Counted from the stretch's first letter, positions 1-17,421 are shown. The stretch: DNA of 40,136 nt from Actinomycetes bacterium (GCA_021803085.1 JAJZMD010000178.1:1-40136); one strand, 5' to 3'. The notes: generated from the sequence alone by a model not told the origin. Numbers and translations: made by a program.

Positions 1-1
1 C

Positions 2-937
2 CAGGTGATGGTCGAAGAGGGTCGGGTCCGGCCGGGCGAGCTCGTCGTCGGCACCGATTCCCACACGACCACCTATGGGGCGGTCGGCGCGGCGGGCTGC
101 GGGATCGGCAGCTCGGAGATGGCGTACGCGCTCGCGACGGGCAGGCTCTGGTTCAAGGTTCCCGAGACCGTGCTCGTCGTGTTCGAGGGTCGGCTCGCCT
201 ACATGGTCACGGCGAAGGACCTCGTCCTGTACCTCATGCGGGAGGTCGGATCTGCCGAAGCGCAGTACCGATCGGTGGAGCACGGGGGAGCCGGCACCGA
301 CTCGCTGTCGCTTTCCGAGCGGATGACGATCGCGAACATGGGCGTCGAGATGGGGGCGAAGTTCTCGCTGTTCCCGGCCGATGGAGCCCCGACGATGCGC
401 TCCGGTGCCCGCTACGTCGCGACCCACACCGTCGACCTCGGCGCGCTCTCGCCCCAGGTCGCCGTGCCCCACCACGTGGAGAACGTCGTCGACGTGGGCG
501 AGGTCGCTGGGCTCCGTCTCGACCAGGTGTTCCTCGGCTCGTGCACGAACGGCAGGCTCGAGGACCTCCGTATTGCGGCCGCGATCCTGCGTGGCCAGAA
601 GATCGCTCCCCGAGTGCGCATGATCGTCACGCCTGCTTCGTCGAGGGTGTACGAGCAAGCCGCCGGAGAGGGCATCCTCGCCGATCTGTCGGCAGCCGGG
701 GCGATCGTGGAGGGACCCGGCTGTGGTCCGTGCTTCGGCGGCCACCTCGGGCTGCTCGCCGCCGGCGAGCGGTGCCTCGGGACCCACAACCGGAACTTCC
801 GAGGCCGCATGGGAAGCCCGGAGGGCGAGATCTACCTCGGATCTCCAGCAACCGCTGCCGCGTCGGCGCTCGCCGGGGCGATCGCCGATCCCCGCGAGCT
901 CGCGGTACCCACCGAGGCGGAAGAGGTGGCGACGTGA
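2..937 (+). CDS. Aconitase-family hydro-lyase large subunit, LeuC/homoaconitase-like (5' partial)
   Basis: Large subunit of a [4Fe-4S] hydro-lyase of the 3-isopropylmalate dehydratase/homoaconitase type, which shifts the hydroxyl of a 2-alkylmalate through a dehydrated intermediate. The window edge cuts it: about 310 codons are seen where whole proteins have about 420, so roughly the N-terminal quarter is missing. Visible are a TDSHT motif near the edge and the three iron-sulphur cluster ligands, the Cys of SCTNGR (codon at 542) and the pair in GPGCGPC (codons at 722 and 731). The small-subunit gene follows with a GTGA overlap, so the two are translated together. The family is certain. The substrate is not: the downstream DRE-TIM enzyme, PrpF isomerase and 2-oxoacid oxidoreductases suggest a catabolic or chain-extending role rather than leucine synthesis. 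Homoaconitate, methylcitrate, citramalate or dimethylmalate are all possible. Confidence 0.9.
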   Translation, partial: QVMVEEGRVRPGELVVGTDSHTTTYGAVGAAGCGIGSSEMAYALATGRLWFKVPETVLVVFEGRLAYMVTAKDLVLYLMREVGSAEAQYRSVEHGGAGTDSLSLSERMTIANMGVEMGAKFSLFPADGAPTMRSGARYVATHTVDLGALSPQVAVPHHVENVVDVGEVAGLRLDQVFLGSCTNGRLEDLRIAAAILRGQKIAPRVRMIVTPASSRVYEQAAGEGILADLSAAGAIVEGPGCGPCFGGHLGLLAAGERCLGTHNRNFRGRMGSPEGEIYLGSPATAAASALAGAIADPRELAVPTEAEEVAT

Positions 938-1455
938 CGGGATCGTCCGGCGGGGGGATCCGCTTCTGCGGCAGGGCCTGGCTCTTCGGGCCCGATATCA
1001 GCACGGACATGCTCTCGCCGGGCCAGTACGTGCACGATCCGCCGGAGGTCCGGCTCCGCCACGTCCTCGAACCGGCGCGCCCGGAGTTCGCCTCGCAGGT
1101 GCGCCCGGGCGACATCGTCGTCGCCGCGGCGAACTTCGGTTGCGGGTCGAGCCGGGAGTCGGCGCCCCAGCACCTGAAGGATCTCGGCGTCGCAGTCGTG
1201 CTGGCCGACTCCCTTGCGCGGATCTTCGCACGCAACGCGATCGCGCTTGGCCTTCCCGCGCTGAGCTGCCCCGGCGTGAGCACGGCGGTACGCGATCAGG
1301 AGATCGTGGAGGTGGACGTCGAGGCGGGCGAGGTGGTCGTGGGGGAAGGCCGGACGGTGCTGCGAGCTGACCGTATCCCCGAGCCGATGCTCGACGTGCT
1401 GCGCCTCGGTGGTATCGAGCCGCTGCTCGCGGCGCTCGCCGCCGGGAGGCGGTGA
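934..1455 (+). CDS. Aconitase-family hydro-lyase small subunit, LeuD-like
   Basis: Swivelling-domain subunit (173 aa) that partners the large subunit to form the active dehydratase; it carries substrate-recognition residues and no metal cluster. The start is GTG at 934, inside the TGA of the upstream gene, which gives a protein of normal LeuD length; the open frame runs further upstream but only antisense-like sequence lies there. Seen in the protein are an AWLFGPDISTDML segment matching the family's N-terminal signature and the highly conserved NFGCGSSRESAP loop around residue 70, followed by a typical IFARNAIALGLP stretch. It is the last gene before a 325-base gap that contains a hairpin and a promoter, so it probably ends a transcription unit with its large subunit. 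Family assignment is firm; substrate is open for the same reasons as its partner. Confidence 0.9.
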   Translation: MTGSSGGGIRFCGRAWLFGPDISTDMLSPGQYVHDPPEVRLRHVLEPARPEFASQVRPGDIVVAAANFGCGSSRESAPQHLKDLGVAVVLADSLARIFARNAIALGLPALSCPGVSTAVRDQEIVEVDVEAGEVVVGEGRTVLRADRIPEPMLDVLRLGGIEPLLAALAAGRR

Positions 1456-1513
1456 CCCGGGCAGGACCCGGTAACTGGGCAGGACCGGGCAAGACCGCCG
1501 CTTCGTCGACCAT

Positions 1514-1532
1514 CCGGCGCGTCGGGCGCCGG
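1514..1532 (+). terminator. GC-rich hairpin after the dehydratase genes
   Basis: A perfect 7-bp inverted repeat (CCGGCGC / GCGCCGG) with a 5-base loop lies 58 bases after the LeuD-like stop and before the next promoter. There is no T-run, which is common for actinobacterial terminators, so it is a candidate only. Confidence 0.4.
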
Positions 1533-1569
1533 GTGCCGCCGGCAATGACGGTGCCGGAGGGCCGCTCAC

Positions 1570-1599
1570 TTGACTGACCGGACAGTCCAGGCATAAGAT
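1570..1599 (+). promoter_or_regulatory. Candidate sigma-70 promoter for the long catabolic operon
   Basis: TTGACT at 1570-1575 and TAAGAT at 1594-1599 are separated by 18 bases, a good match to a housekeeping promoter in an otherwise very GC-rich gap. Transcription would start near 1606, leaving a leader of about 175 bases before the GTG at 1781. The next fourteen genes on this strand are tightly packed or overlapping, so this is the best single candidate for their common promoter. The rest of the 1456-1780 gap holds the hairpin at 1514-1532 and no convincing gene. Confidence 0.5.
1572..1587. promoter_or_regulatory. Candidate operator palindrome overlapping the -35 box
   Basis: GACTG-ACCGGA-CAGTC is an inverted repeat with 5-bp arms and a CCGG centre. 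It overlaps the -35 hexamer and the spacer of the promoter, where a TetR- or GntR-type regulator bound as a dimer would block transcription. No regulator gene is present in the window, so this is inference from position and symmetry. Confidence 0.35.
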
Positions 1600-1780: not shown

Positions 1781-3124
1781 GTGGGACGTGACGAGCAGGG
1801 GATGACCGGTTCGAAGAGCACCGGGGCACGGTCGGCTCGACCACCGTCCCCGGCTGCGGAGGCCTCGGCGCCATCCGACCTCATCTACGACTGGAACGGC
1901 CAGCTGCCCTGCTCGTTCTCGCTCGACGTGCCGGCGGCCATCGAGCTCAACGACGAGACGCTGCGCGACGGGCTCCAATGCCCCTCGGTGCGGCAGCCTT
2001 CCCTCGTCCAGAAGCAGGCGTTCCTCCGCACGCTCCCTCAAATCGGCGTCGACGCCGCCGACATCGGCTATGCGGGAGCGAGCGAGCAGTCGTTCGAGCA
2101 CGTCGTCGGGCTCGCCCGGACGATCGCCGATGAGCGCCTTCCCATCAGGCCGAACTGCGCGGGACGGACCCACGTGAAGGACATCGACGCCATCGCCGAG
2201 GCGCAGCAGCGCGCCGGCGTTCGCATCGACGCTGCGCTCTTCATCGGGTCGAGCCCGATCCGCCAGTGGGTGGAAGGCTGGGACGTCCCGAGGCTCGTCC
2301 AGACGATCGAGGACGCGATCTCCTACGCGGTACGCGCTGGGCTCGAGGTGATGTTCGTCACGGAAGACACCACCCGGGCGCGCCAGAAGGACATCGCAAC
2401 GATGTACCTCGCAGCTGCAGGTGCCGGCGCGACCCGCTTCTGCATTTCGGACACCGTCGGCCAGGCGACGCCGGGCGGCGTGCAGCAGATCGTGCCGTTC
2501 CTCGCTGGCGAGCTCGCCGCGCACGGATTCGGAGAGGCCCTCGTCGACTGGCACGGTCACCGTGATCGCGGGCTGGACGTCGTGAACGCCCTTGCGGCGC
2601 TGTCCGCCGGTGCGCGGCGGGTACATGGCTGCGCGCTCGGCATCGGCGAGCGGGTTGGCAACACCGCGCTCGACCTCGTGCTCGTGAACATCGCCCTGCT
2701 CGGATGGAAGGAGCTCGACCTCCTCGGGCTTCCCGCCTACTGCCAGGTCGCGAGCGAGATGACCGGCGTGCCGATCCCGAGGAACTACCCGGTGGTGGGC
2801 CAGGACGCCTTTGCGACGAGCACTGGGGTCCACGCGGCCGCAGTCGCCAAGGCGTACGAGAAGGGCGACGCGTGGCTGGCGGACCGCGTCTACAGCGCGG
2901 TTCCGGCCTCGCTCGTCGGGCGCAGCCAGGAGATCTCGATCGGTCCGATGAGCGGGAAGTCGAACGTCGTCTACTGGCTGCGGACGCACGGTTTCGATCC
3001 GACGACCGAGCGGACGACGGCCATCCTCGAGGCCGCGAAGTGCTCCTCCCACGTGCTGAGCGATGGCGAGGCGACCAGGATCGCCCGGGCCGCAGGGCGC
3101 CGGCGCGTGAAGAAGGCCGGCTGA
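1781..3124 (+). CDS. DRE-TIM metallolyase, homocitrate/2-isopropylmalate synthase-like
   Basis: Claisen-type enzyme (447 aa) of the family that joins an acyl-CoA to a 2-oxoacid to make a 2-alkylmalate, or in relatives cleaves such products. The barrel begins with NDETLRDG (Asp58, Arg62, Asp63), giving metal-binding Asp and catalytic Arg. The second metal motif, normally HxHND, reads HGHRD (His258, His260, Arg261), an Asn-to-Arg change. GIGERVGN and a late SGKSNVV segment are also family-like. No separate C-terminal leucine-feedback domain of standard length is obvious. The GTG at 1781 is chosen because GGGGAGGTGA lies 4 bases before it; ATG at 1802 is an alternative and the frame is open up to 1670. 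It opens the long operon, 1 base ahead of IorA. The exact acceptor 2-oxoacid, and even the reaction direction, cannot be read from sequence. Confidence 0.85.
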   Translation: MGRDEQGMTGSKSTGARSARPPSPAAEASAPSDLIYDWNGQLPCSFSLDVPAAIELNDETLRDGLQCPSVRQPSLVQKQAFLRTLPQIGVDAADIGYAGASEQSFEHVVGLARTIADERLPIRPNCAGRTHVKDIDAIAEAQQRAGVRIDAALFIGSSPIRQWVEGWDVPRLVQTIEDAISYAVRAGLEVMFVTEDTTRARQKDIATMYLAAAGAGATRFCISDTVGQATPGGVQQIVPFLAGELAAHGFGEALVDWHGHRDRGLDVVNALAALSAGARRVHGCALGIGERVGNTALDLVLVNIALLGWKELDLLGLPAYCQVASEMTGVPIPRNYPVVGQDAFATSTGVHAAAVAKAYEKGDAWLADRVYSAVPASLVGRSQEISIGPMSGKSNVVYWLRTHGFDPTTERTTAILEAAKCSSHVLSDGEATRIARAAGRRRVKKAG

Positions 3125-3125
3125 G

Positions 3126-4985
3126 ATGGCCGAGACGACGAGGCTCGCCCTGCTCTCAGGCAATGAGGCTCTCGCCCTCGGCGCGTACCACGCCGGTGTC
3201 GAGGTGGCGACCGGCTACCCGGGGACGCCGAGCACCGAGGTGCTCGAGCACCTCGTCCGGATCTCCGAGGCGGGCGAGGTCGACGCCGACTGGTCGACGA
3301 ACGAGAAGGTGGCCCTCGACGTCGGCATCGGTGCCGCCCTCGCCGGCAAGCGGGTGCTCGTGACGATGAAGCACGTCGGCGTGAACGTGGCGATGGACAG
3401 CCTGATGACGAGCGCGTACATCGGCGTGAAAGGCGGTCTCGTCCTCATGACCGCCGACGACCCGGGAATGCACAGCTCCCAGAACGAGCAGGACAACCGC
3501 TACCTCGGCCGCTTCGCCGGCATTCCGGTCTTCGAACCCGCTGACAGCCAGGAGATCTACGACTTCGTTCAGGTCGCGTTCGAGGTGAGCGAACGCTTCG
3601 ACGTCCCCTGTCTCCTGCGCACCACGACCCGCACCTCGCACGCCCGATCGAAGGTGGAGGCCGGAGCGCGGGTCGTACGTGCCGTGGAGCCGTCGTTCAC
3701 GCGTAACCCGGCGAAGTACGTCATGCTGCCCGCCTTCGCCCGCGAGCGTCACGTCGTCCACCTCGATCGTCTCGAGGCGCTCCAGGCCTATGTCGAGGAG
3801 CACCCGCTCACGGTCGAGGAGCTGCGCTCGCGCGCCCTCGGCGTCGTCACCGCGGGGATCTCGTACCACCACGTGCGCGAGGTGCTGCCCGAGGCGAGCA
3901 TCCTCAAGCTCGGGATCGAGTTCCCGGTTCCGGTCGAGCGGATCCGGCGCTTCGCGGCCAAGGTCGAGCGGCTTCTCGTGGTCGAAGAGCTCGAGCCCTA
4001 TCTGGAGGAGGAGATTCGCCGCATCGGCATCACCGTCGAGGGGAAGCGCTGGTTTCCCCGCGTCGGCGAGCTCTCGGCCGCCGTCGTGCGCAAGGGCTTC
4101 GTCGAGGCCGGCGCGCTGCCTGCGGGCGACGGTCCGAGCGCGCGCCTGCCGGTGCCGGGCGTCGGGAACAGACCCCCGGTGCTGTGCCCCGGCTGCCCGC
4201 ATTCGACCCCGTTCCTCGCGCTGGGTGAGCTCGACGCGATCGTCTCTGGCGACATCGGCTGCTACACCCTCGCCGCCGCACCGCCGCTCTCCTCGATGGA
4301 CACCTGCCTCGCCATGGGGTCGAGCATCGGCATCGCGACGGGGCTTGCCGTCTCGGGGCTCTCGAAACAGCCGATCGTCGCGACGATCGGTGACTCGACC
4401 TTCCTCCACGGGGGCATCCCCCCGTTGCTCGATGCCATCCACCGCCAAGCGAACATGGTCGTGCTCATCCTCGACAACGGGACGACGGCGATGACCGGGG
4501 GCCAGCCGCACCCGGGGATCGCGTACGACATCCGCGGCCGCGCGGCGCCCGCTGCCGACATCGCGGCGATCTGCCGCGCCGCCGGCGTCACGTCGGTGGT
4601 GGTCGTCGATCCCTACGACGTCCCGGCGACCCGTCGGGCGCTGCGCGCGGCGATCGCCCACAGGGGGGTCTCCGTCGTCGTGACGAGCAGGGTGTGCGTG
4701 GAGTCGCCCGTGAAGAGCCGGGGCCCCGTCTACACCGTCCTGAGCGATCGGTGCGACGGCTGCCAGGCGTGCATGAAGGTCGGTTGTCCGGCGATCTCCT
4801 GGGACCTGGCGACCATGTCGACACCCCCGGGAGTGAAGATCGACCCAGCAGTCTGCTCAGGATGCACGATCTGTGCGCAGCTATGCCCCTCTCGAGCGAT
4901 CGTGTCGGTGCGCGACGCGAAGGCGGACGACGCGAAGGTGCTCAGCCTCGCTGCCGCTCCAGCGGAGGCAGGGTCGGCTCGATGA
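3126..4985 (+). CDS. iorA: Indolepyruvate ferredoxin oxidoreductase alpha subunit-like (IorA)
   Basis: Catalytic subunit (619 aa) of an aryl-pyruvate-type 2-oxoacid:ferredoxin oxidoreductase, which decarboxylates a 2-oxoacid to an acyl-CoA and reduces ferredoxin. The order is a pyrimidine-binding domain, a transketolase-like middle domain, a thiamine-diphosphate domain with IGDSTFLHGG (near residue 422), then two [4Fe-4S] motifs at Cys543/546/549/554 and Cys577/580/583/587. This architecture and length are those of IorA. ATG at 3126 follows the previous stop by one base, and its last four bases overlap the start of the IorB-like gene. Known members use indole-, phenyl- or hydroxyphenylpyruvate; the presence of two aromatic-type acid-CoA ligases in the same operon agrees with an aryl substrate, but that is inference. 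Confidence 0.9.
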   Translation: MAETTRLALLSGNEALALGAYHAGVEVATGYPGTPSTEVLEHLVRISEAGEVDADWSTNEKVALDVGIGAALAGKRVLVTMKHVGVNVAMDSLMTSAYIGVKGGLVLMTADDPGMHSSQNEQDNRYLGRFAGIPVFEPADSQEIYDFVQVAFEVSERFDVPCLLRTTTRTSHARSKVEAGARVVRAVEPSFTRNPAKYVMLPAFARERHVVHLDRLEALQAYVEEHPLTVEELRSRALGVVTAGISYHHVREVLPEASILKLGIEFPVPVERIRRFAAKVERLLVVEELEPYLEEEIRRIGITVEGKRWFPRVGELSAAVVRKGFVEAGALPAGDGPSARLPVPGVGNRPPVLCPGCPHSTPFLALGELDAIVSGDIGCYTLAAAPPLSSMDTCLAMGSSIGIATGLAVSGLSKQPIVATIGDSTFLHGGIPPLLDAIHRQANMVVLILDNGTTAMTGGQPHPGIAYDIRGRAAPAADIAAICRAAGVTSVVVVDPYDVPATRRALRAAIAHRGVSVVVTSRVCVESPVKSRGPVYTVLSDRCDGCQACMKVGCPAISWDLATMSTPPGVKIDPAVCSGCTICAQLCPSRAIVSVRDAKADDAKVLSLAAAPAEAGSAR

Positions 4986-6019
4986 CCCGGGTCAACGGGT
5001 CGAATGGCAAGGTGCCGGCGCGCACGCCGCCAGCAAGGCTCGAGTCGGGCAACCTCGTCGTGGTCGGCGTCGGCGGGCAGGGCGTGATCCTGGCCAGCAA
5101 CCTCGTCTCTCAGGTGCTCCTCGACGCCGGGTACGACGTGAAGAAGTCCGAGGTCCACGGCATGTCCCAGCGTGGCGGCACGGTCGTGAGCCATGTGCGC
5201 TTCGGGCCCGAGGTCCACTCGGTGATGGTGGAGCCAGGCTCAGCTGACTGGATCGTCGCGTTCGAATGGGAAGAGGGCTTGCGCTCCCTTTCCTACCTCA
5301 AGCCGAACGGCGTCGCGCTCGTGAGCACGGAGCGCAGGATCCCTCCCGCGGCGATGCTCGATCATCGTGATCAGTCGCTCGAGTACCCGGCACTTGGCGA
5401 GGTGCCGTTCGGGGTGCTCGCGCTCGACACCTTCGCCGTCGCCGGCGACGCCGCCGCGGCGGTACCGGCGGTCGCCCAGACGGTGCTCCTCGGCGCGCTG
5501 TCGGTCCTGCTTCCCTTCCCGGTCGAGGCGTGGCAGGCGTCGATCAACGCCTGGGTGCCCCGCAAGGCGTTGACCGGCAACCTGAGAGCGTTCGAGCGCG
5601 GGCGGGCCCTCGCCCCGGAGGTGAGAGCGGCGGAGGCCGCGGCGAGGACGGTGGCGAGGACGGTGGAGCCTGGGCCCGAGGTCGTGCCGAGCGCTTCCGC
5701 GTCGCCTGTTGAGCACGACGGAGCGAAGCGCTCCCGCGACGGGGTCGCGGAACGCCTACTGCCGGTGGTGCGCATCGAGCGGAGCTGGTGCAAGGGCTGC
5801 GATATCTGCGTGGCCATGTGCCCGGAGAAGTGCCTCGTCCTCGACGAGCTCGACGTCGCGGTCTTCGCCCGTCCGGAGCGGTGTACGGGCTGCCAGCTGT
5901 GCGCCTTGCTCTGTCCTGATCTCGCGATGGACGTCCTTTGGGTGCCTGCCGACGATCTCACCGGCTGGCTTTTCGCCAACGAGGAGGACCGTGTCCGAGC
6001 GGCAGCTGACCCAAGGTAA
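4982..6019 (+). CDS. IorB-like gamma-domain subunit fused to a two-cluster ferredoxin (KorD-like)
   Basis: A 345-aa chimera. Residues about 23-215 match the beta subunit of indolepyruvate ferredoxin oxidoreductase (COG1014 gamma domain, with GVGGQGVILASNLV near the N terminus and EVHGMSQRGG). After a linker rich in Ala, Glu and Pro, residues about 260-345 form a 2[4Fe-4S] ferredoxin domain with Cys270/273/276/280 and Cys301/304/307/311, like the small delta/KorD subunit of 2-oxoglutarate ferredoxin oxidoreductase. ATG at 4982 overlaps the IorA stop as ATGA. The next gene, korA, starts inside its last 29 bases. KorD genes normally sit beside korA/korB, so the fusion joins the Ior and Kor enzymes physically and perhaps electronically. 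Domain calls are firm; the effect of the fusion is inference. Confidence 0.88.
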   Translation: MTRVNGSNGKVPARTPPARLESGNLVVVGVGGQGVILASNLVSQVLLDAGYDVKKSEVHGMSQRGGTVVSHVRFGPEVHSVMVEPGSADWIVAFEWEEGLRSLSYLKPNGVALVSTERRIPPAAMLDHRDQSLEYPALGEVPFGVLALDTFAVAGDAAAAVPAVAQTVLLGALSVLLPFPVEAWQASINAWVPRKALTGNLRAFERGRALAPEVRAAEAAARTVARTVEPGPEVVPSASASPVEHDGAKRSRDGVAERLLPVVRIERSWCKGCDICVAMCPEKCLVLDELDVAVFARPERCTGCQLCALLCPDLAMDVLWVPADDLTGWLFANEEDRVRAAADPR

Positions 6020-7139
6020 CGAGGCATGCGCCCGTGCCGCATTGGCGGCGGGGTGCACGTTCTTCGGCGGCTACCCGATCTCGCCCTCGTCAGAGATCGC
6101 AGAGCACCTCGCTCGCGAGCTGCCCAAGCGCGGCGGCGTGTTCATCCAGATGGAGGACGAGCTCGCATCGATGGGCGCGGTCCTCGGAGCTTCGCTGGGC
6201 GGCCGGCGAGCGATGACGGCGACGTCAGGGCCGGGCTTCACGCTCATGCAGGAGCATCTTGGGTACGCGTCGTTGGCGGAGATCCCCTGCGTGGTGGTCG
6301 ACGTGATGCGCGGCGGTCCGAGCACGGGACTTCCCACCTCGCCCGCCCAGGGCGACGTGATGCAGGCGCGCTGGGGCTCGCACGGAGACCGGGCGACGAT
6401 CGCGGTGGCGCCGGGAAGCGTCCAGGAGGTCTACACCCTCACGATCGAGGCGTTCCGTTTGGCCGAGACCCTCCGCACGCCTGTCGCCGTGCTCTACGAC
6501 GAGGTGATCGGCCACATGCGCGAGGGGGTGGTGCTTCACGAGCCGACCTCGGAGGAGCTGGGCCTGCGCTCGGGGCCGCGTGGGCCGTTCTCGCCGGACT
6601 TCCTCCCGTACGAGCCGGACGAGAAAGGGGTCGCGAGAGTTCCCGACTTCGGGCGCGGGTACCGCTTCCACGTGACCGGGCTGATGCACGACGAGCGCGG
6701 GTATCCCACCTCGGACCACGCGAAGGTCGAGCAGCTGCTCGCGCGCCTCGAACGCAAGGTCGACGCCGCAGTCGACGCGGTCGCGCCCGAGCTCTACCGT
6801 CTCGAGGATGCGAAGATCGTGGTCGTCGCCTACGGCATCGTCGCCCGGACGGCGCGAGCCGCGGTCGACGCGCTGCGCGCCGAGGGTGTGCCCGCCGGGT
6901 TGCTGCGCACGCGCCTTCTGTGGCCGATCCCTGCGGCCGCGCTCGCCGACGCGATCGGGCATGCTGACCTCGTCGTCGTGGCCGAGATGAACCGGGGTCA
7001 GTGGGCGTTCGAGGTGGAGCGGCTCGCGGGCCGCCACGTTCAGCTCGCCCCGTACTTGAAGGCGGGCGGAAGCGTGATCACGGCGGAGGAGCTCGTGGCC
7101 CACGTGCTTCGCGTGTCGACGAAGGGAGCCAGGGTCTGA
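5991..7139 (+). CDS. korA: 2-oxoacid:ferredoxin oxidoreductase alpha subunit (KorA-like)
   Basis: Alpha subunit (382 aa) of a 2-oxoglutarate-type ferredoxin oxidoreductase, holding the pyrimidine-binding and domain II segments. It opens with a QGNEACARAA segment, then GGYPISPSSEI and MEDELASMGAVLGASLGG, both characteristic of KorA. GTG at 5991 is the start, with GAGGAGG 3 bases upstream inside the previous gene; the frame is open much further upstream, but that part lies over the ferredoxin domain and is a shadow. It overlaps the IorB-ferredoxin gene by 29 bases and the korB start by one base (TGATG). Homologues act on 2-oxoglutarate, branched-chain 2-oxoacids or phenylglyoxylate, so the product could be succinyl-CoA, a branched acyl-CoA or benzoyl-CoA. 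Confidence 0.88.
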   Translation: MSERQLTQGNEACARAALAAGCTFFGGYPISPSSEIAEHLARELPKRGGVFIQMEDELASMGAVLGASLGGRRAMTATSGPGFTLMQEHLGYASLAEIPCVVVDVMRGGPSTGLPTSPAQGDVMQARWGSHGDRATIAVAPGSVQEVYTLTIEAFRLAETLRTPVAVLYDEVIGHMREGVVLHEPTSEELGLRSGPRGPFSPDFLPYEPDEKGVARVPDFGRGYRFHVTGLMHDERGYPTSDHAKVEQLLARLERKVDAAVDAVAPELYRLEDAKIVVVAYGIVARTARAAVDALRAEGVPAGLLRTRLLWPIPAAALADAIGHADLVVVAEMNRGQWAFEVERLAGRHVQLAPYLKAGGSVITAEELVAHVLRVSTKGARV

Positions 7140-10797: not shown

Positions 10798-11544
10798 ATG
10801 GGAGTCGCCGGGCGGGTCGCCGTGGTGACCGGGAGCGGCCAGGGGATCGGCCAGGGGATCGCGCGGCATCTCGCCGCCCATGGGGCCAAGGTGGTCCTGA
10901 ACGACGTGGACGAGTCCCGGGTCGAGGCGGCAGCCGCGGCGCTCTCGGCCGAGGGCGGCGAGGTGGCCTACGTGGCGAGCGACGTCGCGACCTCCGACGG
11001 GGCCGGGGCGCTCGTCGACCAGGCGCTCGCCACCTTCGGGGCGGTGGACATCCTCGTCAACAACGCCGGGGTGGCGCGCGACAAGTGGCTCGTCAAGATG
11101 ACCGAGGAGGACTGGGACCTCGTGATGAGCGTGAACCTGCGTTCCCAGTTCCTCTGCACGAAGGCGGCGGCGCCGCACATGATGGAGAAGCAGCACGGGC
11201 GGATCGTGAACATCGCGTCGCGCGCATGGCTCGGAGGTCCCGGGCAGGCGAACTACAGCGCCTCGAAGGGCGGCGTGGTCTCGCTCACGAGGACCTGCGC
11301 TCTCGAGTTCGCCAAGTACCAGATCACCGCGAACGCCATCGCGCCGGCGCTCGTCGACACGCCGCTGTTCCGGAGCCTGAAGGAAGACGTGCAGGAGCGG
11401 CTGATCGGCACGATCCCCGTCGGGCGGATCGGCGGCCCCGAGGAGATCGCAGCCGCGGTCGGCTTCTTCGCCGCCGACGAGTCGTGGTACGTGACCGGGC
11501 AGCTGCTCTACGTGTGCGGCGGGCGGAGCATCGGGGCGTCGTGA
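10798..11544 (+). CDS. Short-chain dehydrogenase/reductase (FabG-like, 3-hydroxyacyl type)
   Basis: NAD(P)-dependent classical SDR of 248 aa. The cofactor motif TGSGQGIG is at residues 11-18, NNAG follows, and the catalytic set is Ser141, Tyr153 and Lys157 in YSASK. The spacing between Ser and Tyr is 12, one shorter than in E. coli FabG. Start ATG at 10798 has GAGAGGTGAG just upstream; an in-frame GTG at 10789 is less well placed. By position it should oxidise the 3-hydroxyacyl-CoA made by the hydratase, with the thiolase next. Substrate and NAD versus NADP preference are not clear; an aspartate after the second strand (LNDVDES) hints at NAD. Confidence 0.87.
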   Translation: MGVAGRVAVVTGSGQGIGQGIARHLAAHGAKVVLNDVDESRVEAAAAALSAEGGEVAYVASDVATSDGAGALVDQALATFGAVDILVNNAGVARDKWLVKMTEEDWDLVMSVNLRSQFLCTKAAAPHMMEKQHGRIVNIASRAWLGGPGQANYSASKGGVVSLTRTCALEFAKYQITANAIAPALVDTPLFRSLKEDVQERLIGTIPVGRIGGPEEIAAAVGFFAADESWYVTGQLLYVCGGRSIGAS

Positions 11545-11610: not shown

Positions 11611-12045
11611 ATGGTGAGCACGGAAGCGGCGACGGCGGTGATGAAGCGCCCGTACGAGGTGGAGGACGGACTCGTGCGACTGCGCGCGGGAAGGTGTCCT
11701 GCGTGCAATGCCGTGTACTGCCCTGCGCGCCTCGTCTGCGACGGCTGTGGTCACCGGGGGCTCGAAGAGATCCTGCTCGCCCCCCGGGGGAAGATCTACA
11801 CCTTCACGACTGTGCACCAGTCGACGCCGGAGTTCCAAACGCCCTACCACCTCTGCTACGTCGACTTCGACGAGCAGGTGCGCGTGATGCTGCCTGCCGC
11901 AGGCGAGGAGCGGCCGAGGATCGGCGAGGACGTGGAGATCGTGCTCGGGACCGGCCCCCGACTCGTCGGCACAGAGCCCGAGGAGGGCCCGCACGCGCTC
12001 ATGGTCGCAGGGCCCGCGACAGGGAGGGACGAAGACGATGTCTGA
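11611..12045 (+). CDS. DUF35 zinc-ribbon/OB-fold protein, thiolase partner
   Basis: A 144-aa protein with a rubredoxin-like zinc ribbon (CPAC and CDGC, residues about 31-49) followed by an OB-fold with the FTTVHQ strand typical of the ChsH2/DUF35 family. In archaea and actinobacteria these proteins bind a thiolase or acyl-CoA hydratase and complete its CoA site. Its 3' end overlaps the thiolase start by 8 bases, the normal arrangement. The start is ATG 11611; the ribosome-binding site there is weak, and ATG 11641 is an in-frame alternative. It adds no catalytic residues of its own. Confidence 0.85.
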   Translation: MVSTEAATAVMKRPYEVEDGLVRLRAGRCPACNAVYCPARLVCDGCGHRGLEEILLAPRGKIYTFTTVHQSTPEFQTPYHLCYVDFDEQVRVMLPAAGEERPRIGEDVEIVLGTGPRLVGTEPEEGPHALMVAGPATGRDEDDV

Positions 12046-13180
12046 CGTGTACGTGGTCGGAGCGGGAATGACCCCGTTCGGGAAGCATCCTGACAAGACC
12101 GCTGCCGAGCTCGGGGCGGCGGCCGTGCTCGAAGCGCTCGACGACGCGGGCGTGTCGCTCGGGGAAATCGAGGCCGCCTGGGTCGGGAGCGTGTTCCAGG
12201 GGATGGCGATGGGCCAGCGCGCGCTCGGCGAAGGCGGGATCTCGGGCATCCCCATCACGAACGTCGAGAACGCGTGCTCGAGCGGCTCGACGGCGATCTG
12301 GGGAGCTGCCATGTCGATCAAGGCCGGCATGTACGACGTCGTGCTCGCGCTCGGCGTCGAACATCTGACCGGGGCGTTCCGCGGCGCCTTCACCCCCGAC
12401 GAGAGCGATGTCGAGGCTCAGCGGGGCCTGACGATGCCCGCCGTCTACGCCATGCGCGCCCAGCGGCATTTCGCCCAGTACGGGACCACCTCGGAGCAGC
12501 TGGCGGCGATCTCGGCGAAGAACAAGCGCAACGCGGTGGCCAACCCGCTCGCGCAGTTCAAAAAGCCCGTCAGCGTCGACGAGGTGCTGGCGTCGCGGAT
12601 GATCGCCGACCCCCTCCATCTCCAGGAGTGCGCGCCCGTGAGCGACGGGGCGGCCGCCGTCGTGCTCGCGAGCAAGAGAAAGCGGGCAGCGCTCGGCGGA
12701 AGCCGAGCGGTACGACTCGCGGCGTCCACGCTGAAGAGCGGGCGCGCCGAGGTCGGCCTGAAGGACATGACGGTCGAGGATCTCACTTGGCGCGCCGCCG
12801 AAGAAGCCTACGAGCGGTCCGGAATCAGTCCGAGCGACATCCGCTTCGCGGAGGTGCACGACTGCTTCAGCATCGCCGAAGCGCTGCGGGTGGAGGGCCT
12901 CGGCCTCTTCCCGCACGGGGAGTACCCGGCACGCGTCGTCAAAGGGGAGGCCGACCTCGACGGACGGCTACCTGTGAACGGGAGCGGCGGCCTGCTCGGC
13001 AAGGGCCATCCGCTCGGCGCCACCGGCGTCGCCCAGGTGGTCGAGGTGGTGCGCCAGCTCCGTGGGGAGGCCGGCCTACGACAGATCCCCGGAGCGCGCG
13101 TCGGGCTCGCCCACTGCAGGGGCGGTAAGGCCCAGGGGGTCGAGGGCACGGCCTGCACCGTCAACATCCTCACGGTCTAG
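12038..13180 (+). CDS. Thiolase (SCP-x/acetyl-CoA acetyltransferase family)
   Basis: Thiolase of 380 aa of the SCP-x-like group that works with DUF35 proteins. The nucleophile Cys80 lies in ENACSSGSTA; EVHDCFSIAE carries the conserved His, GHPLGATG the glycine-rich CoA loop, and HCRGG near the C terminus replaces the usual second Cys motif, as in this subgroup. ATG at 12038 is preceded by AGGGAGG inside the DUF35 gene. It should cleave a 3-oxoacyl-CoA to acetyl- or propionyl-CoA, closing the hydratase-SDR-thiolase sequence. The chain length accepted is unknown. Confidence 0.88.
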   Translation: MSDVYVVGAGMTPFGKHPDKTAAELGAAAVLEALDDAGVSLGEIEAAWVGSVFQGMAMGQRALGEGGISGIPITNVENACSSGSTAIWGAAMSIKAGMYDVVLALGVEHLTGAFRGAFTPDESDVEAQRGLTMPAVYAMRAQRHFAQYGTTSEQLAAISAKNKRNAVANPLAQFKKPVSVDEVLASRMIADPLHLQECAPVSDGAAAVVLASKRKRAALGGSRAVRLAASTLKSGRAEVGLKDMTVEDLTWRAAEEAYERSGISPSDIRFAEVHDCFSIAEALRVEGLGLFPHGEYPARVVKGEADLDGRLPVNGSGGLLGKGHPLGATGVAQVVEVVRQLRGEAGLRQIPGARVGLAHCRGGKAQGVEGTACTVNILTV

Positions 13181-13184
13181 GACG

Positions 13185-14384
13185 ATGGCGGTCGTAGCGG
13201 ACAGGGCGAGGGCAAGTACGTCGCCAAACTGGCGCGAAGAGGGCGAGCTCGTCGCGGTGGCGTGCTCGCTCATGCGCGGCGGCACCAGCAAGGCGGTGTT
13301 CCTCGACGAGGCGGTCGTGCCCTCCGATCCCGACGAGCGGGCGCGGTTCCTCCTCGCGTTGATGGGCAGCCCCGATCCTCGCCAGATCGATGGTCTGGGC
13401 GGCGCGGACCTGCTCACGAGCAAGGTGGCGATGATCGGCCCGCCGAGCGTTCCCGGCGCCGACCTCGACTACACCTTCGCCCAGGTGAGCGTACGGGACG
13501 CTCGGGTGGACTACGACATCAACTGTGGCAACATCTCGGCAGCGGTCGGTGTCTACGCGGTGGAGCACGGTCTCGTCGCCGCGCACGGCGAAATGGCGAC
13601 CGTGCGAATCCACAACGTCAACACCCGGCGTGTCTTCTACGCGGAGGTGCCGGTGGCGGCCGGGCACGCGCGCGTCGAAGGGGCGTGCCGGGTCGACGGC
13701 GTGCCGGGCTCGGGTGCCGAGATCCTCCTCGACCTGCGCGAGACGATCGGCACGGTGACCGGCGAGCTCTTGCCGACCGGGTCGGCCATCGACACCCTCG
13801 AGGTCCCCGGTCTCGGGCACGTCGACGTGTCGATCGTCGACATCGCCTACCTGTGCGTGGCCGTCCGCGCGAGCGCCCTCGGCATCGCCGAGGGTGACCT
13901 CCCGGTGCTGCCCGGCGACGACCTGCTCAGCGCCGTGGACCGGCTCCAGCGCGCGGCGGCGCGCCACCTCGATCTTGCCGAGGGGACGCTCGTGCCGGTG
14001 CCAATCCTCGTGAGCGAGCCCCACGACTACCGGACCCTGGTCGGGGAGGAGGAGGTCGCGGCGGGCGACCTCGACGTCGTCGCGGAGGTGATCGGCGGCC
14101 AGCCCCTCGCGCTTCACAAGGCGTTCCCCGGAGGTGCTGGCGTGACCCTCGCCGTCACGGCGCGCCTTTCCGGGAGCGTCGCTGCCGTGCCCGGGTATGG
14201 CGGGCCGGTGCGGATCGGGCACCCGAGCGGGTGCACCGTCGTCGACGTCGTGCTCGGCACGGGGCCGGACGGCAAGACGTCCGTCGAAAGGGCGGCGTAC
14301 AGCCGCACTGCGAGACGGCTATTGGACGGCACGGCGTACCTGAAGAAGGCAGCGCTGCGCCCGGTACCCGAGGGGGTGGCATGA
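13185..14384 (+). CDS. PrpF-family isomerase (methylaconitate/methylitaconate isomerase-like)
   Basis: A 399-aa protein of the PrpF (DUF453) family, two diaminopimelate-epimerase-like folds that move a double bond or isomerise cis/trans in unsaturated di- and tricarboxylates. Family hallmarks seen: RGGTSKAVF (Lys36), YDINCGN (Cys114), GHPSG and TARRLLDGTAY near the end. Known members are 2-methylaconitate isomerase, 3-methylitaconate delta-isomerase, 4-oxalomesaconate tautomerase and aconitate isomerase. ATG at 13185 begins 4 bases after the thiolase stop; its 3' end overlaps the ligase start as ATGA. Such isomerases feed aconitase-family hydratases, and one such pair (LeuC/LeuD-like) sits at the start of the window, so the two probably act on the same acid. 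Which acid is not known. Confidence 0.85.
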   Translation: MAVVADRARASTSPNWREEGELVAVACSLMRGGTSKAVFLDEAVVPSDPDERARFLLALMGSPDPRQIDGLGGADLLTSKVAMIGPPSVPGADLDYTFAQVSVRDARVDYDINCGNISAAVGVYAVEHGLVAAHGEMATVRIHNVNTRRVFYAEVPVAAGHARVEGACRVDGVPGSGAEILLDLRETIGTVTGELLPTGSAIDTLEVPGLGHVDVSIVDIAYLCVAVRASALGIAEGDLPVLPGDDLLSAVDRLQRAAARHLDLAEGTLVPVPILVSEPHDYRTLVGEEEVAAGDLDVVAEVIGGQPLALHKAFPGGAGVTLAVTARLSGSVAAVPGYGGPVRIGHPSGCTVVDVVLGTGPDGKTSVERAAYSRTARRLLDGTAYLKKAALRPVPEGVA

Positions 14385-15745
14385 TCCTTCAGCCCGAGTT
14401 CGAGTCCCTGCCGCGGCCTCAGCTGCAGGCCCTGCAGGCGGAGCGCCTCTCGGAGGTCGTCCGCTACGCCTATGAGCGGGTGCCCTTCTATCGCGAGCGC
14501 CTCGACGATCTGGGTCTCAAGCCTGATGAGGTCAGCGGGACCGACGATCTCACGCTCGTGCCCTTCACGCGAAAGTCCGACCTGCGTGACCATTACCCCT
14601 TCGGCATGTTCGCGGTCCCCATGTCCGAGGTGGTCCGCATCCACGCTTCGACGGGGACCACGGGCCAGCCGACCGTGGTCGGCTATACGCGCCACGACCT
14701 CGAGATCTTTGCCACCGTCTGCGCCCGCACCCTTGCCGCGGCAGGGGCGCAGCCCGGGATGATCCTGCACAACGCGTATGGCTACGGGCTGTTCACCGGG
14801 GGTCTCGGCTTTCATCATGGGGGCGAGCATCTTGGCCTCGCGGTCCTGCCGATCTCCGGCGGGGGAACGGTCCGCCAGGTCGACCTCATGCTCGACTTCC
14901 GCCCCGAGGTCCTCGCGTGCACGCCGAGCTACGCGCTCACCCTCGCCGAAGAGCTGGCGCGCCGGGGAGTGTCGCCAGAGGACGTGCCCATCCGCATCGC
15001 GATCCTCGGCGCGGAGCCGTGGACCGAGTCGATGCGGGCCGAGGTCGACCGGCTGCTCGGCGCTCGTTCGACGAACGTCTACGGCTTGTCCGAGATCGTG
15101 GGGCCTGGCGTCGCCTCCGAGTGCACCGAGGAGCGAGCGGGCTCCCACGTCGCCGAGGACCACTTCCTTGCTGAGGTCGTCGATCCCGAGACGGGTGCCG
15201 TGCTTCCCGAGGGCCAGGCCGGCGTGCTCGTGGTGACGACGCTCACGAAGCAGGCGCTTCCGCTGCTCAGGTACTGGACGGGGGACGTCACGAGCCTGTC
15301 GTCAGAGCCCTGCGCGTGTGGGCGCACCCTGGTCCGGATGGCGCCGCTCAAGGGTCGCACCGACGACATGCTCATCGTCCGTGGCGTGAACGTCTACCCG
15401 ACGCAGATCGAGGCGGTGATCGGGTCCTTCGCCGAGCTGACGCCGAACTACCGGCTCGTGGTCTCGAGGCCCGGCCGCCTCGACGAGCTGTGCGTAGAGG
15501 CGGAGCTGAGCACGGCGTTCCTCCTCAAGGTCGTTGCCGAGACACCGGGTGAGGTTGCCAAGACGTTGTGCGAGGAGCTCGTGGATGCGAACCACGCGCT
15601 GAGGTCCGTGCGCGAACGGCTGGCTCAGGCGATCAAGACGACGGTCGGCGTGAGCGTGAAGGTCCGCCTCCTCGAGCCCGGGGCGGCTCCCCGGTCAGAG
15701 GGCGGAAAGATCGTGCGCGTGGTCGACGAGCGCCAGCTCGTCTAA
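14381..15745 (+). CDS. Phenylacetate-CoA ligase-type adenylate-forming enzyme (PaaK-like)
   Basis: AMP-forming acid-CoA ligase of 454 aa with the short PaaK architecture. Visible motifs are the phosphate loop STGTTGQPTVVGYT, NVYGLSEIVGPG (adenine binding), YWTGDV, and the hinge KGRTDDMLIVRGVNVYPTQIE, which is diagnostic for PaaK. A CAC/CG pair near residue 310 belongs to the zinc-binding-like loop often found in this group. ATG at 14381 overlaps the PrpF stop. The enzyme would activate a free aryl-acetic or related acid, either an imported substrate or the acid left by a 2-oxoacid. It is not part of a paa oxygenase cluster here, which argues against the aerobic phenylacetate route. Confidence 0.87.
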   Translation: MILQPEFESLPRPQLQALQAERLSEVVRYAYERVPFYRERLDDLGLKPDEVSGTDDLTLVPFTRKSDLRDHYPFGMFAVPMSEVVRIHASTGTTGQPTVVGYTRHDLEIFATVCARTLAAAGAQPGMILHNAYGYGLFTGGLGFHHGGEHLGLAVLPISGGGTVRQVDLMLDFRPEVLACTPSYALTLAEELARRGVSPEDVPIRIAILGAEPWTESMRAEVDRLLGARSTNVYGLSEIVGPGVASECTEERAGSHVAEDHFLAEVVDPETGAVLPEGQAGVLVVTTLTKQALPLLRYWTGDVTSLSSEPCACGRTLVRMAPLKGRTDDMLIVRGVNVYPTQIEAVIGSFAELTPNYRLVVSRPGRLDELCVEAELSTAFLLKVVAETPGEVAKTLCEELVDANHALRSVRERLAQAIKTTVGVSVKVRLLEPGAAPRSEGGKIVRVVDERQLV

Positions 15746-15746
15746 G

Positions 15747-15762
15747 CCGCAGGCGCCTGCGG
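15747..15762. promoter_or_regulatory. 16-bp perfect palindrome between the two ligase genes
   Basis: CCGCAGGCGCCTGCGG lies one base after the PaaK-like stop. It could be a short hairpin that partly terminates transcription, or a protein-binding site for separate control of the last ligase gene. No T-run follows it. Confidence 0.35.
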
Positions 15763-15852
15763 GCGCCTAGTGTCCCTCGACGTTCACACCGATGGATGGT
15801 CGTCGGACGTGCAGGACGTGCACGGATGAGCGTGGGGCAAGGAGGGGCTGCG

Positions 15853-17421
15853 GTGCCGGAACCGTTCAATGCCAGCGTGTACCTGGTCGATCGCCACGTC
15901 GAGGCCGGCGACGGCGACCATGTGGCGATTCGCTGCCAGGAGGGGGAGATCACCTACGAGTCGCTGCTCGCGCGCATCTGCGACGTGGCGTCGGGGCTGG
16001 AGGTGCTCGGCGTGCGGCCCGAGGATCGCGTGATTCTCGTCATGGCGGACAGTCCCGAGCTCGTCGTCGCGTTTCTCGGGGCGATGCGCCTCGGCGCGGT
16101 GCCGATCCCCGTGAACACGATGCTCACGTCCGCCGAGCTGTTGAAGCTCGCTGAGAACAGCCGGGCACGCTTCGCGGTGACGAGTGGCTCCTTCAGCGCG
16201 AAGAGCGCGGTGCTGGCCGACGCGGCCCCCGAGGTCGAGCACCTCGTGGTGGTAGGCGAGTCGCTGCCAGAGGTCGGCACGGCCGAGGTGCATGCGTGGA
16301 AGGAGGTGATGACGGGTACCGGCGCCTTCAAGGCACCGTATGCAACCTGGGACGAGTCGCCCGGGTTCTGGCTCTACACCTCCGGGACGACGGGCCGCCA
16401 GCGTGGGGCGGTCCATCGCCACGTCGACATGAAGGTGACCGTCGAGACCTATGCCGACACCGTGCTGCGGCTCAGACCCTCGGACCGGTGCTTCTCGATC
16501 GCGAAGCTGTTCTTCGCCTACGGCCTCGGCAACAGCCTCACGTTCCCACTGGCCGCCGGCGCGAGCACGGTGCTCGACGCCGAGCCGCCCGCACCCGCAT
16601 CGGTGCTCGGCACCCTTCGGAGCCATGAGCCCACGCTCTTCTTCGGGGTGCCCACCTTCTATGCGGCGCTGCTCGCGTCCGATCTCCCCGACGACACGTT
16701 CAGGAGCGTTCGCTACGCGGTTTCGGCCGGCGAGCCGCTGCCGGCGCCATTGTTCCACCGGTTCAAGGATCGCTTCGGCGTCGAGATCCTGGACGGGATC
16801 GGCTCGACCGAGGCACTGCACATCTTCATCTCGAACAAGCCCGGGATGATCCGCCCCGGCACGACTGGCACGCCCGTCGAGGGCTACGAGCTGCGCCTGG
16901 TCGATGACGACGGCAACGTCCTCGAAGGCGCCGCAGTCGGTCATCTCGAGCTGCGCGGCGACTCCACGGCCGTCGGCTACTGGTGCGACGCAACGAGCAC
17001 GCGCTGGTCGTTCCGGGGCGACTGGCTGCACACGGGAGACGTCTACTCGCGCGCAGAGGACGGCTATTACACCTACCTTTCACGGTCCGACGACATGATC
17101 AAAGCCGGCGGGATCTGGGTGTCGCCCGCTGAGGTGGAGTCGGTGCTGCTCGAGTGCCCCGGCGTCTTGGAAGCCGCGGTCGTCGGCTTCCTCGATGACG
17201 AGGATCTCGAGAAGCCCGCAGCTTTCCTCGTCCCCCTGCCCGGCGAGCACCTCGAGGTGGACGCGGTGGCCGAGTTCTGCCGGGAACGCCTCGCGCCCTT
17301 CAAGCGCCCGCGCAGGATCGTGGTGACCGAGGAGCTGCCGAAGACGGCAACGGGGAAGATCCAGCGCTTCAAGCTGCGCGTGCTGGTCACCGAGGCGACG
17401 CGGACGCCGCCTCCCGCTTGA
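15853..17421 (+). CDS. Benzoate/4-hydroxybenzoate-CoA ligase family protein
   Basis: AMP-forming ligase of 522 aa matching the benzoate-CoA ligase group: FNASVYLVDRHV at the N terminus, YTSGTTGRQRGAVHRH phosphate loop, GIGSTEALHIFISN, WLHTGD, and the C-terminal PKTATGKIQRF with the catalytic Lys. These sequences (N-terminal and STEALHIF segments especially) are typical of aryl-CoA ligases rather than acetyl-CoA synthetases. GTG at 15853 is chosen because AAGGAGGGG lies 5 bases upstream; ATG at 15826 is an in-frame alternative with a poorer site. It is the last gene of the operon, ending 60 bases before a hairpin shared with the convergent transporter operon. Aromatic substrate is likely but unproven. 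Confidence 0.85.
   Translation: MPEPFNASVYLVDRHVEAGDGDHVAIRCQEGEITYESLLARICDVASGLEVLGVRPEDRVILVMADSPELVVAFLGAMRLGAVPIPVNTMLTSAELLKLAENSRARFAVTSGSFSAKSAVLADAAPEVEHLVVVGESLPEVGTAEVHAWKEVMTGTGAFKAPYATWDESPGFWLYTSGTTGRQRGAVHRHVDMKVTVETYADTVLRLRPSDRCFSIAKLFFAYGLGNSLTFPLAAGASTVLDAEPPAPASVLGTLRSHEPTLFFGVPTFYAALLASDLPDDTFRSVRYAVSAGEPLPAPLFHRFKDRFGVEILDGIGSTEALHIFISNKPGMIRPGTTGTPVEGYELRLVDDDGNVLEGAAVGHLELRGDSTAVGYWCDATSTRWSFRGDWLHTGDVYSRAEDGYYTYLSRSDDMIKAGGIWVSPAEVESVLLECPGVLEAAVVGFLDDEDLEKPAAFLVPLPGEHLEVDAVAEFCRERLAPFKRPRRIVVTEELPKTATGKIQRFKLRVLVTEATRTPPPA

Follow-up and report, generated by a model that had tools for sequence, protein, structure and literature searches.

Sixteen genes at one end of a contig from an uncultivated actinobacterium include a core of 14 that is very probably a conserved module with a link to the anaerobic metabolism of benzoyl-CoA. 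The contig, titled Actinomycetes bacterium (GCA_021803085.1 JAJZMD010000178.1:1-40136; C66 of a draft genome that comprises 296 contigs and 4.25 Mb), is 40,136 nt long and is referred to here as the window. The run occupies positions 1-17421 on the plus strand and reads leuC, leuD, a gene for a DRE-TIM metallolyase-superfamily enzyme, iorA, iorB, korA, korB, korC, caiB, ech, sdr, duf35, a thiolase gene and prpF, followed by the acid-CoA ligase genes paaK and bcl, which do not belong to the core. An earlier note on this DNA had named these gene families, all of which we recovered on that strand with NCBIfam and Pfam, and had described a run of 14 genes; the run was confirmed, but the count is 16. 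We propose, at a probability of roughly 50%, that the core is a catabolic module which would deliver (4-hydroxy)benzoyl-CoA to anaerobic ring reduction by an arylpyruvate route. What we observed is the genes and their linkage, a shared history, a gene fusion, conserved motif residues, an association with benzoyl-CoA reductase, and no linked elongation dehydrogenase in the stretches searched.

The link to benzoyl-CoA reductase was seen in a survey of 395 Actinomycetota genomes of one class, taken by an even draw, in each of which no more than four candidate places were scored. The DRE-TIM enzyme, called at E 1e-80 or better, occurred in 32 of these genomes, which bear eleven family labels; BcrC, called by TIGR02263 at E 1e-20 or better, occurred in 33, in none above the equivalog cut-off. 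BcrC was present in 30 of the 32 genomes with the DRE-TIM enzyme versus 3 of the 363 without it (Fisher's p = 2.8e-39, a descriptive value since the genomes are related), and 17 of the 30 carry both genes on the same contig, approximately 9 to 34 kb apart. In the window genome (G000) BcrC-, BcrB- and BcrA/D-like genes and an Hcr-like enzyme lie on another contig, C140. The earlier reading made no connection to benzoyl-CoA reductase because the bcr genes lie outside the window. Among 12 other genomes of the same genus, G008 and G009 have the operon's DRE-TIM gene and a PF06050 pair, G007 and G010 the pair but no such DRE-TIM gene, and eight (58-92% complete) have neither. Among the ten handles G063-G070 (G000-type carriers excepted), G065 is the only DRE-TIM carrier without a PF06050 match.

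Stretches around the locus were fetched for 31 of the 32 DRE-TIM genomes (all but the window itself; L019, taken to belong to G238, stands for that genome). Many of them end, at a contig edge or at the chosen limit, before the set is complete, and absences there are not evidence. The DRE-TIM gene adjoins iorA in 27 of the 31 loci; it adjoins caiB in G095 and G301, and in G365 and G370 it is at or close to the contig end. DUF35 and thiolase genes were found in the stretches of 29 genomes, prpF in 27, hcrA in 22, bcrC in 17, had in 14 and dch in 11, and five genomes have all 14 core genes inside the fetched stretches. Pairwise protein distances correlated at 0.86-0.97 among the DRE-TIM enzyme, iorA, korA, thiolase, prpF, sdr and caiB (18-27 genomes per gene); these seven correlated with bcrC or hcrA at 0.54-0.81, and the latter two with each other at 0.39, so that the history of the core is shared, and less so by its island neighbours. 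Of 21 genomes searched for IorA, 9 had a match above the indolepyruvate:ferredoxin oxidoreductase (IOR) cut-off; all 9 are DRE-TIM carriers, and none is among the 10 same-genus genomes without the operon.

On contigs C4 of G442 and C67 of G430 the core and the ring-reduction genes form one island of approximately 26 kb. Its order is leuD, leuC, sdr, ech, caiB, korCBA, iorBA and the DRE-TIM gene, and, divergent from the latter, duf35, thiolase, prpF, hcrCAB, had, oah, dch and bcr. Had (441.2 bits; cut-off 338.65) and Oah (562.2; 464.45) of G442 are above their cut-offs; Dch (208.4; 292.5), HcrA (871.5; 994.55) and BcrC (238.6; 421.15) are best matches below theirs. In L166 a TetR gene stands between caiB and korC. 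The island neighbours in these relatives are thus the genes of the class I benzoyl-CoA pathway of the Thauera type (Bcr, Dch, Had, Oah, Kor), for which an excerpt of PMC9973337 gives KorAB as the electron source of benzoyl-CoA reductase in Thauera; the actinobacterial loci differ in having the core as an extra module, and in Bcr and Hcr subunits that fall under the NCBIfam equivalog cut-offs. As a separate observation, an FrhB-like (coenzyme F420-reducing hydrogenase beta) protein or homologue is encoded beside Hcr genes at L139:16086-17570 (G000:C140), in L144 (G007) and at L017:8507-9700, and such a gene also lies beside Bcr genes in G000 and G007; through this protein, electrons from F420 could enter ring reduction.

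Near relatives of the window keep the order and strand of the run. In L015 and L016, both titled Actinomycetes bacterium, the same locus extends upstream of leuC, where L016 has genes for a periplasmic binding protein and a TetR regulator. The order DRE-TIM, iorA, iorB, korABC, caiB, ech, sdr, duf35, thiolase, prpF, paaK is kept in G061, G062, G063 and G064, and is visible in G065 (L019) through caiB, where the contig ends. After paaK, bcl follows in G061 and G062 as in the window; in L108 (G063) and L110 (G064) a second ech-like gene takes its place. Because order and strand are kept in near relatives and the core recurs, clustered, across the class, the run is more than a chance assortment, and the synteny comparison suggested by the earlier note supports a unit. 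In three assemblies DRE-TIM and IorA are encoded in one stop-free open frame of approximately 1070 aa (L017:9953-13162, L018:3493-6741 and L019:9046-12255). Since the L017 and L018 frames are 96% identical, and that of L019 is 85% identical to both, the three fusions perhaps descend from one event. A molybdenum hydroxylase lies between leuD and the DRE-TIM gene in L017 and L019, and part of it opens the L018 contig; the large subunit in L017 scored 783.6 bits for 4-hydroxybenzoyl-CoA reductase alpha (next family 480.3), with the cut-off of 994.55 unmet. Upstream of leuC we also noticed a second SDR gene, 40-41% identical to that of the window, at L017:1421-2212, at 2.2 kb in L019 and at 15.7 kb in L162; it might conceivably partner the first SDR in the way that BbsC partners BbsD.

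With gene starts that were our pick among candidate starts, most genes of the window run overlap or lie within 66 nt of each other, as the earlier note had it. The two exceptions are leuD/DRE-TIM, separated by 346 nt (214 nt from an earlier GTG), and paaK/second ligase, for which the ATG chosen gives 80 nt and another lying before it 50 nt. The leuC-like large subunit of the aconitase family (2-937), whose 5' end is lost at the contig edge, scored 408.7 bits against NF001614 (cut-off 385), matches PF00330 and has three conserved cysteines at 181, 241 and 244 of the truncated protein; the leuD/dmdB-like small subunit (934-1455) scored 149.5 bits for the TIGR02087 LeuD/DmdB family (108.95). For the 440-aa DRE-TIM enzyme (1802-3124), the sole domain reported was PF00682 HMGL-like. 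Clear of their cut-offs were also iorA, the indolepyruvate:ferredoxin oxidoreductase alpha gene (3126-4985; TIGR03336, 680.1 versus 650.9 bits), korA, the 2-oxoacid:ferredoxin oxidoreductase alpha gene (5991-7139; NF006412, 511.5 versus 411), and bcl, of the benzoate-CoA ligase family (15826-17421; TIGR02262, 548.1 versus 375.25), a 78% identical homologue of which adjoins bcr genes in G063 (L141). Several subunits other than IorA and KorA gave best matches that nevertheless stay below NCBIfam equivalog cut-offs: iorB (4982-6019; IorB families at best 181.9 versus 237), which has PF01558 and a C-terminal two-cluster ferredoxin domain (Fer4) with two CxxCxxCxxxCP motifs; korB (7139-8080; NF007207 2-oxoglutarate:ferredoxin oxidoreductase beta, 254.5 versus 364); and the gamma gene korC (8077-8691; PF01558; NF006323, 114.9 versus 235). 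The PaaK-like arylacetate-CoA ligase (14381-15745; TIGR02155, 564.1 versus 646.3) is likewise below its cut-off. The remaining core genes encode a type III CoA-transferase of the CaiB/BaiF family (8663-9910; PF02515, 431.6 bits), an enoyl-CoA hydratase (ECH; 9973-10755; PF00378, 225.9 bits) with both conserved glutamates, a short-chain dehydrogenase/reductase (SDR; 10798-11544) with YxxxK, a BbsA-like DUF35/OB-fold Zn-ribbon thiolase partner (11611-12045; PF01796, PF12172), a BbsB-like thiolase (12038-13180) and a PrpF-family delta-isomerase (13185-14384) with LTSK and NCGN motifs, which preserve the Lys and Cys motifs of 3-methylitaconate delta-isomerase.

For the run itself, every motif that we checked was present, and the motif residues of seven enzymes are kept wherever the alignments reach. 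In the DRE-TIM enzyme R55, D56, H251, H253 and E283 are identical in 35 of 35 loci compared, and the RD, HxH and GxGExxGN motifs are present, which we take to be catalytic in the 2-isopropylmalate/homocitrate synthase group; in PrpF the LTSK and NCGN residues are kept in 30 of 30 loci. Measured in bits against solved structures, as are all nearest relatives named below unless NCBIfam is given, the closest relatives of the DRE-TIM enzyme are isopropylmalate synthase (110.5) and homocitrate synthase (105.9). The thiolase is nearest to BbsB, the benzoylsuccinyl-CoA thiolase (266, next 236.5); the SDR scores almost equally with a yeast hydroxyacyl-CoA dehydrogenase (247.5) and with BbsD (246.3), FabG types following at 216.5; and DUF35 gives a tie between the archaeal protein 6esq (46.3) and BbsA (45.3). 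CaiB is nearest to succinate-hydroxymethylglutarate CoA-transferase (275.7; BbsEF subunits 160.2 and 138.6), and PrpF, as the earlier note had supposed, to methylitaconate isomerase (270.8, next 187.5). Because solved structures sample families unevenly, the bbs likeness of the tail of the run is a lead with support, not an assignment.

We infer throughout which substrates are used, how the steps follow one another and which way IorAB runs. On the arylpyruvate route the PaaK-like ligase would activate arylacetate, and IorAB would interconvert arylacetyl-CoA and arylpyruvate, which might possibly also come from Phe or Tyr. The DRE-TIM enzyme, as a 2-benzylmalate synthase-like candidate, would condense arylpyruvate with acetyl-CoA to 2-(aryl)methylmalate (benzylmalate); LeuC/LeuD, a putative 2-benzylmalate dehydratase, would convert this to arylmethylmaleate (benzylmaleate); and the PrpF-type protein, a proposed arylmethylmaleate/arylitaconate isomerase, would shift the double bond to give arylitaconate (phenylitaconate, benzylidenesuccinate). 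CaiB, acting as a succinyl-CoA:arylitaconate CoA-transferase, would move CoA from succinyl-CoA to form arylitaconyl-CoA, after which hydration by ECH in a BbsH-like role, oxidation by the SDR in a BbsD-like role and cleavage by the DUF35-thiolase pair would release aroyl-CoA and succinyl-CoA. KorABC, using 2-oxoglutarate, would supply the reductases of 4-hydroxybenzoyl-CoA and benzoyl-CoA with reduced ferredoxin. All carbon is accounted for (R-CH2-CO-COOH + acetyl-CoA -> R-CO-SCoA + succinyl-CoA), and this would be the sole order we found that gives the DRE-TIM enzyme, LeuCD, PrpF, CaiB, ECH, SDR and DUF35-thiolase each a substrate and yields aroyl-CoA. No BbsG-type acyl-CoA dehydrogenase is among the genes of the run, which entry into the bbs sequence after the BbsG step would account for, and the DRE-TIM/IorA fusion fits the route because both enzymes would share arylpyruvate. 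The IOR reaction is reversible; IorAB may either feed arylpyruvate by reductive carboxylation or drain it to arylacetyl-CoA.

Substrate preference was approached through five selectivity positions that an excerpt of a 2026 paper (PMC12961565) lists for HphA, a cyanobacterial 2-benzylmalate synthase. These were mapped by MAFFT via homocitrate synthase 6ktq, with columns chosen from the motifs. The window enzyme has Ala, Met, Val, Cys and His at these positions; by the same excerpt HphA has Ala, Asp, Ala, Met and Ser, homocitrate synthase His, Arg, Thr, Ser and His, and isopropylmalate synthase Leu, Glu, Ser, Asn and Glu (for 3rmj our alignment gives Ile where the excerpt has Leu, a difference of gap placement). 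Hence the Ala of the window enzyme corresponds to Ala73 of HphA, and its Met/Val replace the Arg/Thr of homocitrate synthase. The window residues are common to 35 cluster loci, four loci of Methylomirabilota (NC10) and L021, a locus under an Armatimonadetes title. Judged by these residues, a carboxylated side chain is disfavoured and a large neutral one would fit the pocket, in a manner not specific to the island; the pocket does not prove an aromatic substrate, because relatives without the cluster carry the same residues.

Parts of the proposed route resemble known systems. An excerpt of PMC10818641 describes how the bbs sequence of anaerobic toluene degradation (BbsEF, BbsG, BbsH, BbsCD, BbsAB) yields benzoyl-CoA and succinyl-CoA, with BbsEF taking CoA from succinyl-CoA. 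The window shares with that operon a type III CoA-transferase, hydratase, SDR and DUF35-thiolase, as well as the same proposed products. It differs in its single CaiB gene, nearer to succinate-hydroxymethylglutarate CoA-transferase than to BbsEF, in having no gene of benzylsuccinate-synthase size in the run, and in that the unsaturated acid would come from benzylmalate rather than from toluene and fumarate. As far as the excerpt on HphA goes, phenylpyruvate homologation by HphA/HphCD is like the first two proposed steps, with the shared Ala at the Ala73 position; it differs in that the window has no linked HphB-type dehydrogenase, a catabolic context and four other pocket residues unlike those of HphA. 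Leucine 2-isopropylmalate synthase differs in its pocket (Glu/Ser where the window enzyme has Met/Val), and no leuB-type isopropylmalate-type dehydrogenase (Iso_dh) is linked in the class stretches. To nicotinate fermentation, which uses a dimethylmalate lyase of isocitrate-lyase type and a B12 mutase, the likeness lies in PrpF, nearest to 3-methylitaconate isomerase, and in the LeuD/DmdB family; we propose the reverse direction, with the DRE-TIM enzyme replacing dimethylmalate lyase, and neither an isocitrate-lyase-type dimethylmalate lyase nor a B12 mutase is among the annotated genes of the run. Pad-type anaerobic phenylacetate oxidation via phenylglyoxylate would also connect phenylacetate and benzoyl-CoA, but there is no Pad-type dehydrogenase in the run (NCBIfam bits: korA/PadG 79.8, cut-off 700; korB/PadI 35.6, 700; korC/PadE 29.6, 300). 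The earlier note had found no described pathway with exactly this gene set, and we recognized no description of the set or of the route in the open-access PMC literature, most subscription papers being outside that scope. Tentatively, the pathway may be biochemically new: arylacetate or arylpyruvate would be lengthened with acetyl-CoA for beta-oxidation, with the fusion coupling the reductive carboxylation of arylacetyl-CoA to condensation, in Actinomycetota with class I benzoyl-CoA reductase, and a second version with an isopropylmalate-type dehydrogenase may exist in Methylomirabilota.

Five other explanations were weighed. Chain elongation, in which the DRE-TIM enzyme, LeuCD and an isopropylmalate-type dehydrogenase lengthen arylpyruvate, IorAB makes 3-arylpropanoyl-CoA and beta-oxidation gives benzoyl-CoA, is unlikely for the actinobacterial loci. 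The earlier note had advised looking upstream for such a dehydrogenase, and we found no homologue of the NC10 Iso_dh in 47 class stretches (L162-L208) or in L015, L016 and L018; an NC10 acyl-CoA dehydrogenase homologue was present in just one of the 31 class genomes' fetched stretches, G095, a single contig, has one leuB-model match (108.5 bits) that is likely an isocitrate dehydrogenase, and PrpF and CaiB would be left without a role. Loci in other phyla speak for elongation, and those of NC10 count against the arylpyruvate route: the NC10 loci L038, L039 and L050 carry Iso_dh upstream, leuCD, the DRE-TIM gene, an acyl-CoA dehydrogenase gene and, beyond it, iorA; the L048 contig begins within leuC, and of these genes Iso_dh alone is missing from it; and the genomes of all four have HGD-D and Hcr-like genes. 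This NC10 set could carry out true elongation. Furthermore, an Iso_dh homologue lies within approximately 3 kb of the DRE-TIM gene in 12 of 70 relatives from other phyla, in seven cases directly upstream on the same strand and 59-63% identical to the NC10 Iso_dh. Such neighbours support the view, from gene context, that the DRE-TIM family acts as a synthase rather than a lyase. They bear as well on the direction given by the earlier note, which had an itaconate-type acid isomerized by PrpF, hydrated by LeuCD to a 2-alkylmalate, which would be cleaved (or made) by the DRE-TIM enzyme, and the 2-oxoacid oxidized to acyl-CoA by IorAB. Although PrpF and LeuCD resemble the nicotinate-fermentation pair and the fusion would suit hand-over of a 2-oxoacid to IorA, this direction is improbable: the closest solved relatives of the DRE-TIM enzyme are condensing synthases, homologues elsewhere adjoin Iso_dh genes as synthases do, CoA-ester hydrolysis makes synthase condensation hard to reverse, and CaiB, ECH, SDR and DUF35-thiolase would have no substrate. 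The evidence fits the reverse order better; the note's 2-alkylmalate theme and its link to anaerobic aryl-acid metabolism were well judged.

The set might instead act after ring cleavage on pimelyl- or glutaryl-type dicarboxylates, for example taking glutaryl-CoA via 2-oxoadipate to two succinyl-CoA. The strong co-occurrence with BcrC would suit this, as would CaiB, which is nearest to dicarboxylate CoA-transferases (NCBIfam succinate-glutarate CoA-transferase, 320.6 bits; cut-off 750), and the SDR and thiolase, which could serve 3-hydroxypimelyl-CoA. We consider it quite unlikely, given a pocket without the side-chain Arg/Thr of homocitrate synthase, an IorA of the indolepyruvate type, and benzoyl-CoA-reductase-type genes without a DRE-TIM gene in G007 (71% complete) and G111 (100% complete). 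An oxidative branch of the tricarboxylic acid cycle, with a Re-type citrate synthase, aconitase-like enzymes and KorABC making reduced ferredoxin for benzoyl-CoA reductase, is very improbable. The DRE-TIM and LeuCD superfamilies do include Re-citrate synthase and aconitase-type activities, and KorABC is in the run, but 17 of 18 genomes tested have an ordinary citrate synthase, G068 being the exception, long aconitases occur in carriers (G000, G095 and G133 among them), and PrpF, CaiB, ECH, SDR and thiolase would be unexplained. Leucine biosynthesis, or an unrelated assortment, is scarcely credible: the presence of leuCD-like and LeuA-like families speaks for it, the shared history and conserved clustering of the core against it. 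Leucine biosynthesis is rejected because the leu locus of the window genome is probably on contig C230, where a leuB-like gene, an aconitase-family gene of LeuC length and another PF00682 gene lie together.

Several observations weigh against the arylpyruvate route. Reductive carboxylation by IorAB would use ferredoxin needed for ring reduction. The DRE-TIM enzyme occurs without a BcrC match in G238 and G422, and BcrC without the DRE-TIM enzyme in G111, G413 and G311 (the last of these weak, E 4.7e-21); the Fisher value ignores shared ancestry. The ligases are not part of the core: paaK was found in 8 and bcl in 4 of the 31 genomes' fetched stretches, and the G430 and G442 islands have no homologue of the window's acid-CoA ligases. 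The NCBIfam names for the tail are generic rather than bbs, the thiolase scoring 346.5 bits for a generic model ahead of 292.8 for BbsB (cut-off 750) and the SDR 272.4 for FabG (296), with generic ECH models below cut-off and PrpF at 276.1 for 4-oxalomesaconate tautomerase (440); DUF35 has BbsA as its sole NCBIfam match, at 47.4 bits (250). Compared with the bbs operon, the window run is without a second SDR (BbsC), BbsG and a second BbsEF subunit. Only one of the five pocket positions equals HphA, as the excerpt of PMC12961565 gives it, and His at the S242 position is homocitrate-synthase-like; per position, the same pocket residues recur in 66 to 70 of the 70 cluster-less relatives from other phyla.

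Among those 70 relatives the commonest neighbours were an M20-peptidase homologue (16 loci) and the Iso_dh homologue (12), and no operon was common to them. L021 has leuCD, DRE-TIM, iorAB and korABC in the same order at 35-59% identity, with an acyl-CoA dehydratase activase/BcrD-like gene upstream; its genome contains HGD-D genes, together with a gene that resembles Had without reaching the cut-off (245.1 bits) and a hydratase with Dch as second-best model. L039 also encodes a pyruvate-type oxidoreductase, with PorC, a GltD-like protein with a ferredoxin domain, and PorA; a Pad-type phenylglyoxylate dehydrogenase was considered for this GltD-like gene beside PorC/PorA-like genes and rejected, as NCBIfam scores favour pyruvate-type subunits. 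In the NC10 genome G067 a PrpF gene stands in a different context, beside an aspartate-dehydrogenase-like gene, and in G452 and G455 (Gemmatimonadota-titled L037 and L045) the DRE-TIM relative is the sole PF00682 match. The window genome has a second PrpF-family gene at G000:C108:13461-14519 (326 bits).

Convergent with the run, a Liv-type ABC transporter (livM, livH, livF, livG; 17483-21081, minus strand), whose subunits are below NCBIfam cut-offs, likewise flanks the cluster in L105 and L107 and is possibly an aromatic-acid importer. Farther along, the window encodes a surface-type protein with a right-handed beta-helix and three CWB2 cell-wall-binding stretches (21679-24138), and a row of genes for a solute-binding protein, a fused ABC permease-ATPase, an FAD-linked oxidase and an ACT-domain 2-hydroxyacid dehydrogenase (26270-31883), perhaps for uptake and oxidation of a hydroxy acid. 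A TnpB/IS605 OrfB-type gene (37858-40116) lies at the contig end, its 3' end overlapped by an Rfam Transposase-2 RNA match (40047-40113; 63.4 bits).

In relatives the core travels with ring-breaking genes, and the proposed route may be an undescribed oxygen-free way from aromatic acids to benzoyl-CoA in an uncultivated actinobacterium. An excerpt of PMC12008989 reports that marine-sediment actinobacterial genomes of UBA5794 contain bbsA and bcrBC, read there as toluene degradation. If our proposal is true, bbs-like genes beside benzoyl-CoA reductase need not signal toluene, and the benzoyl-CoA pathway would have a further entry, assembled from leucine-, itaconate- and toluene-type enzymes.

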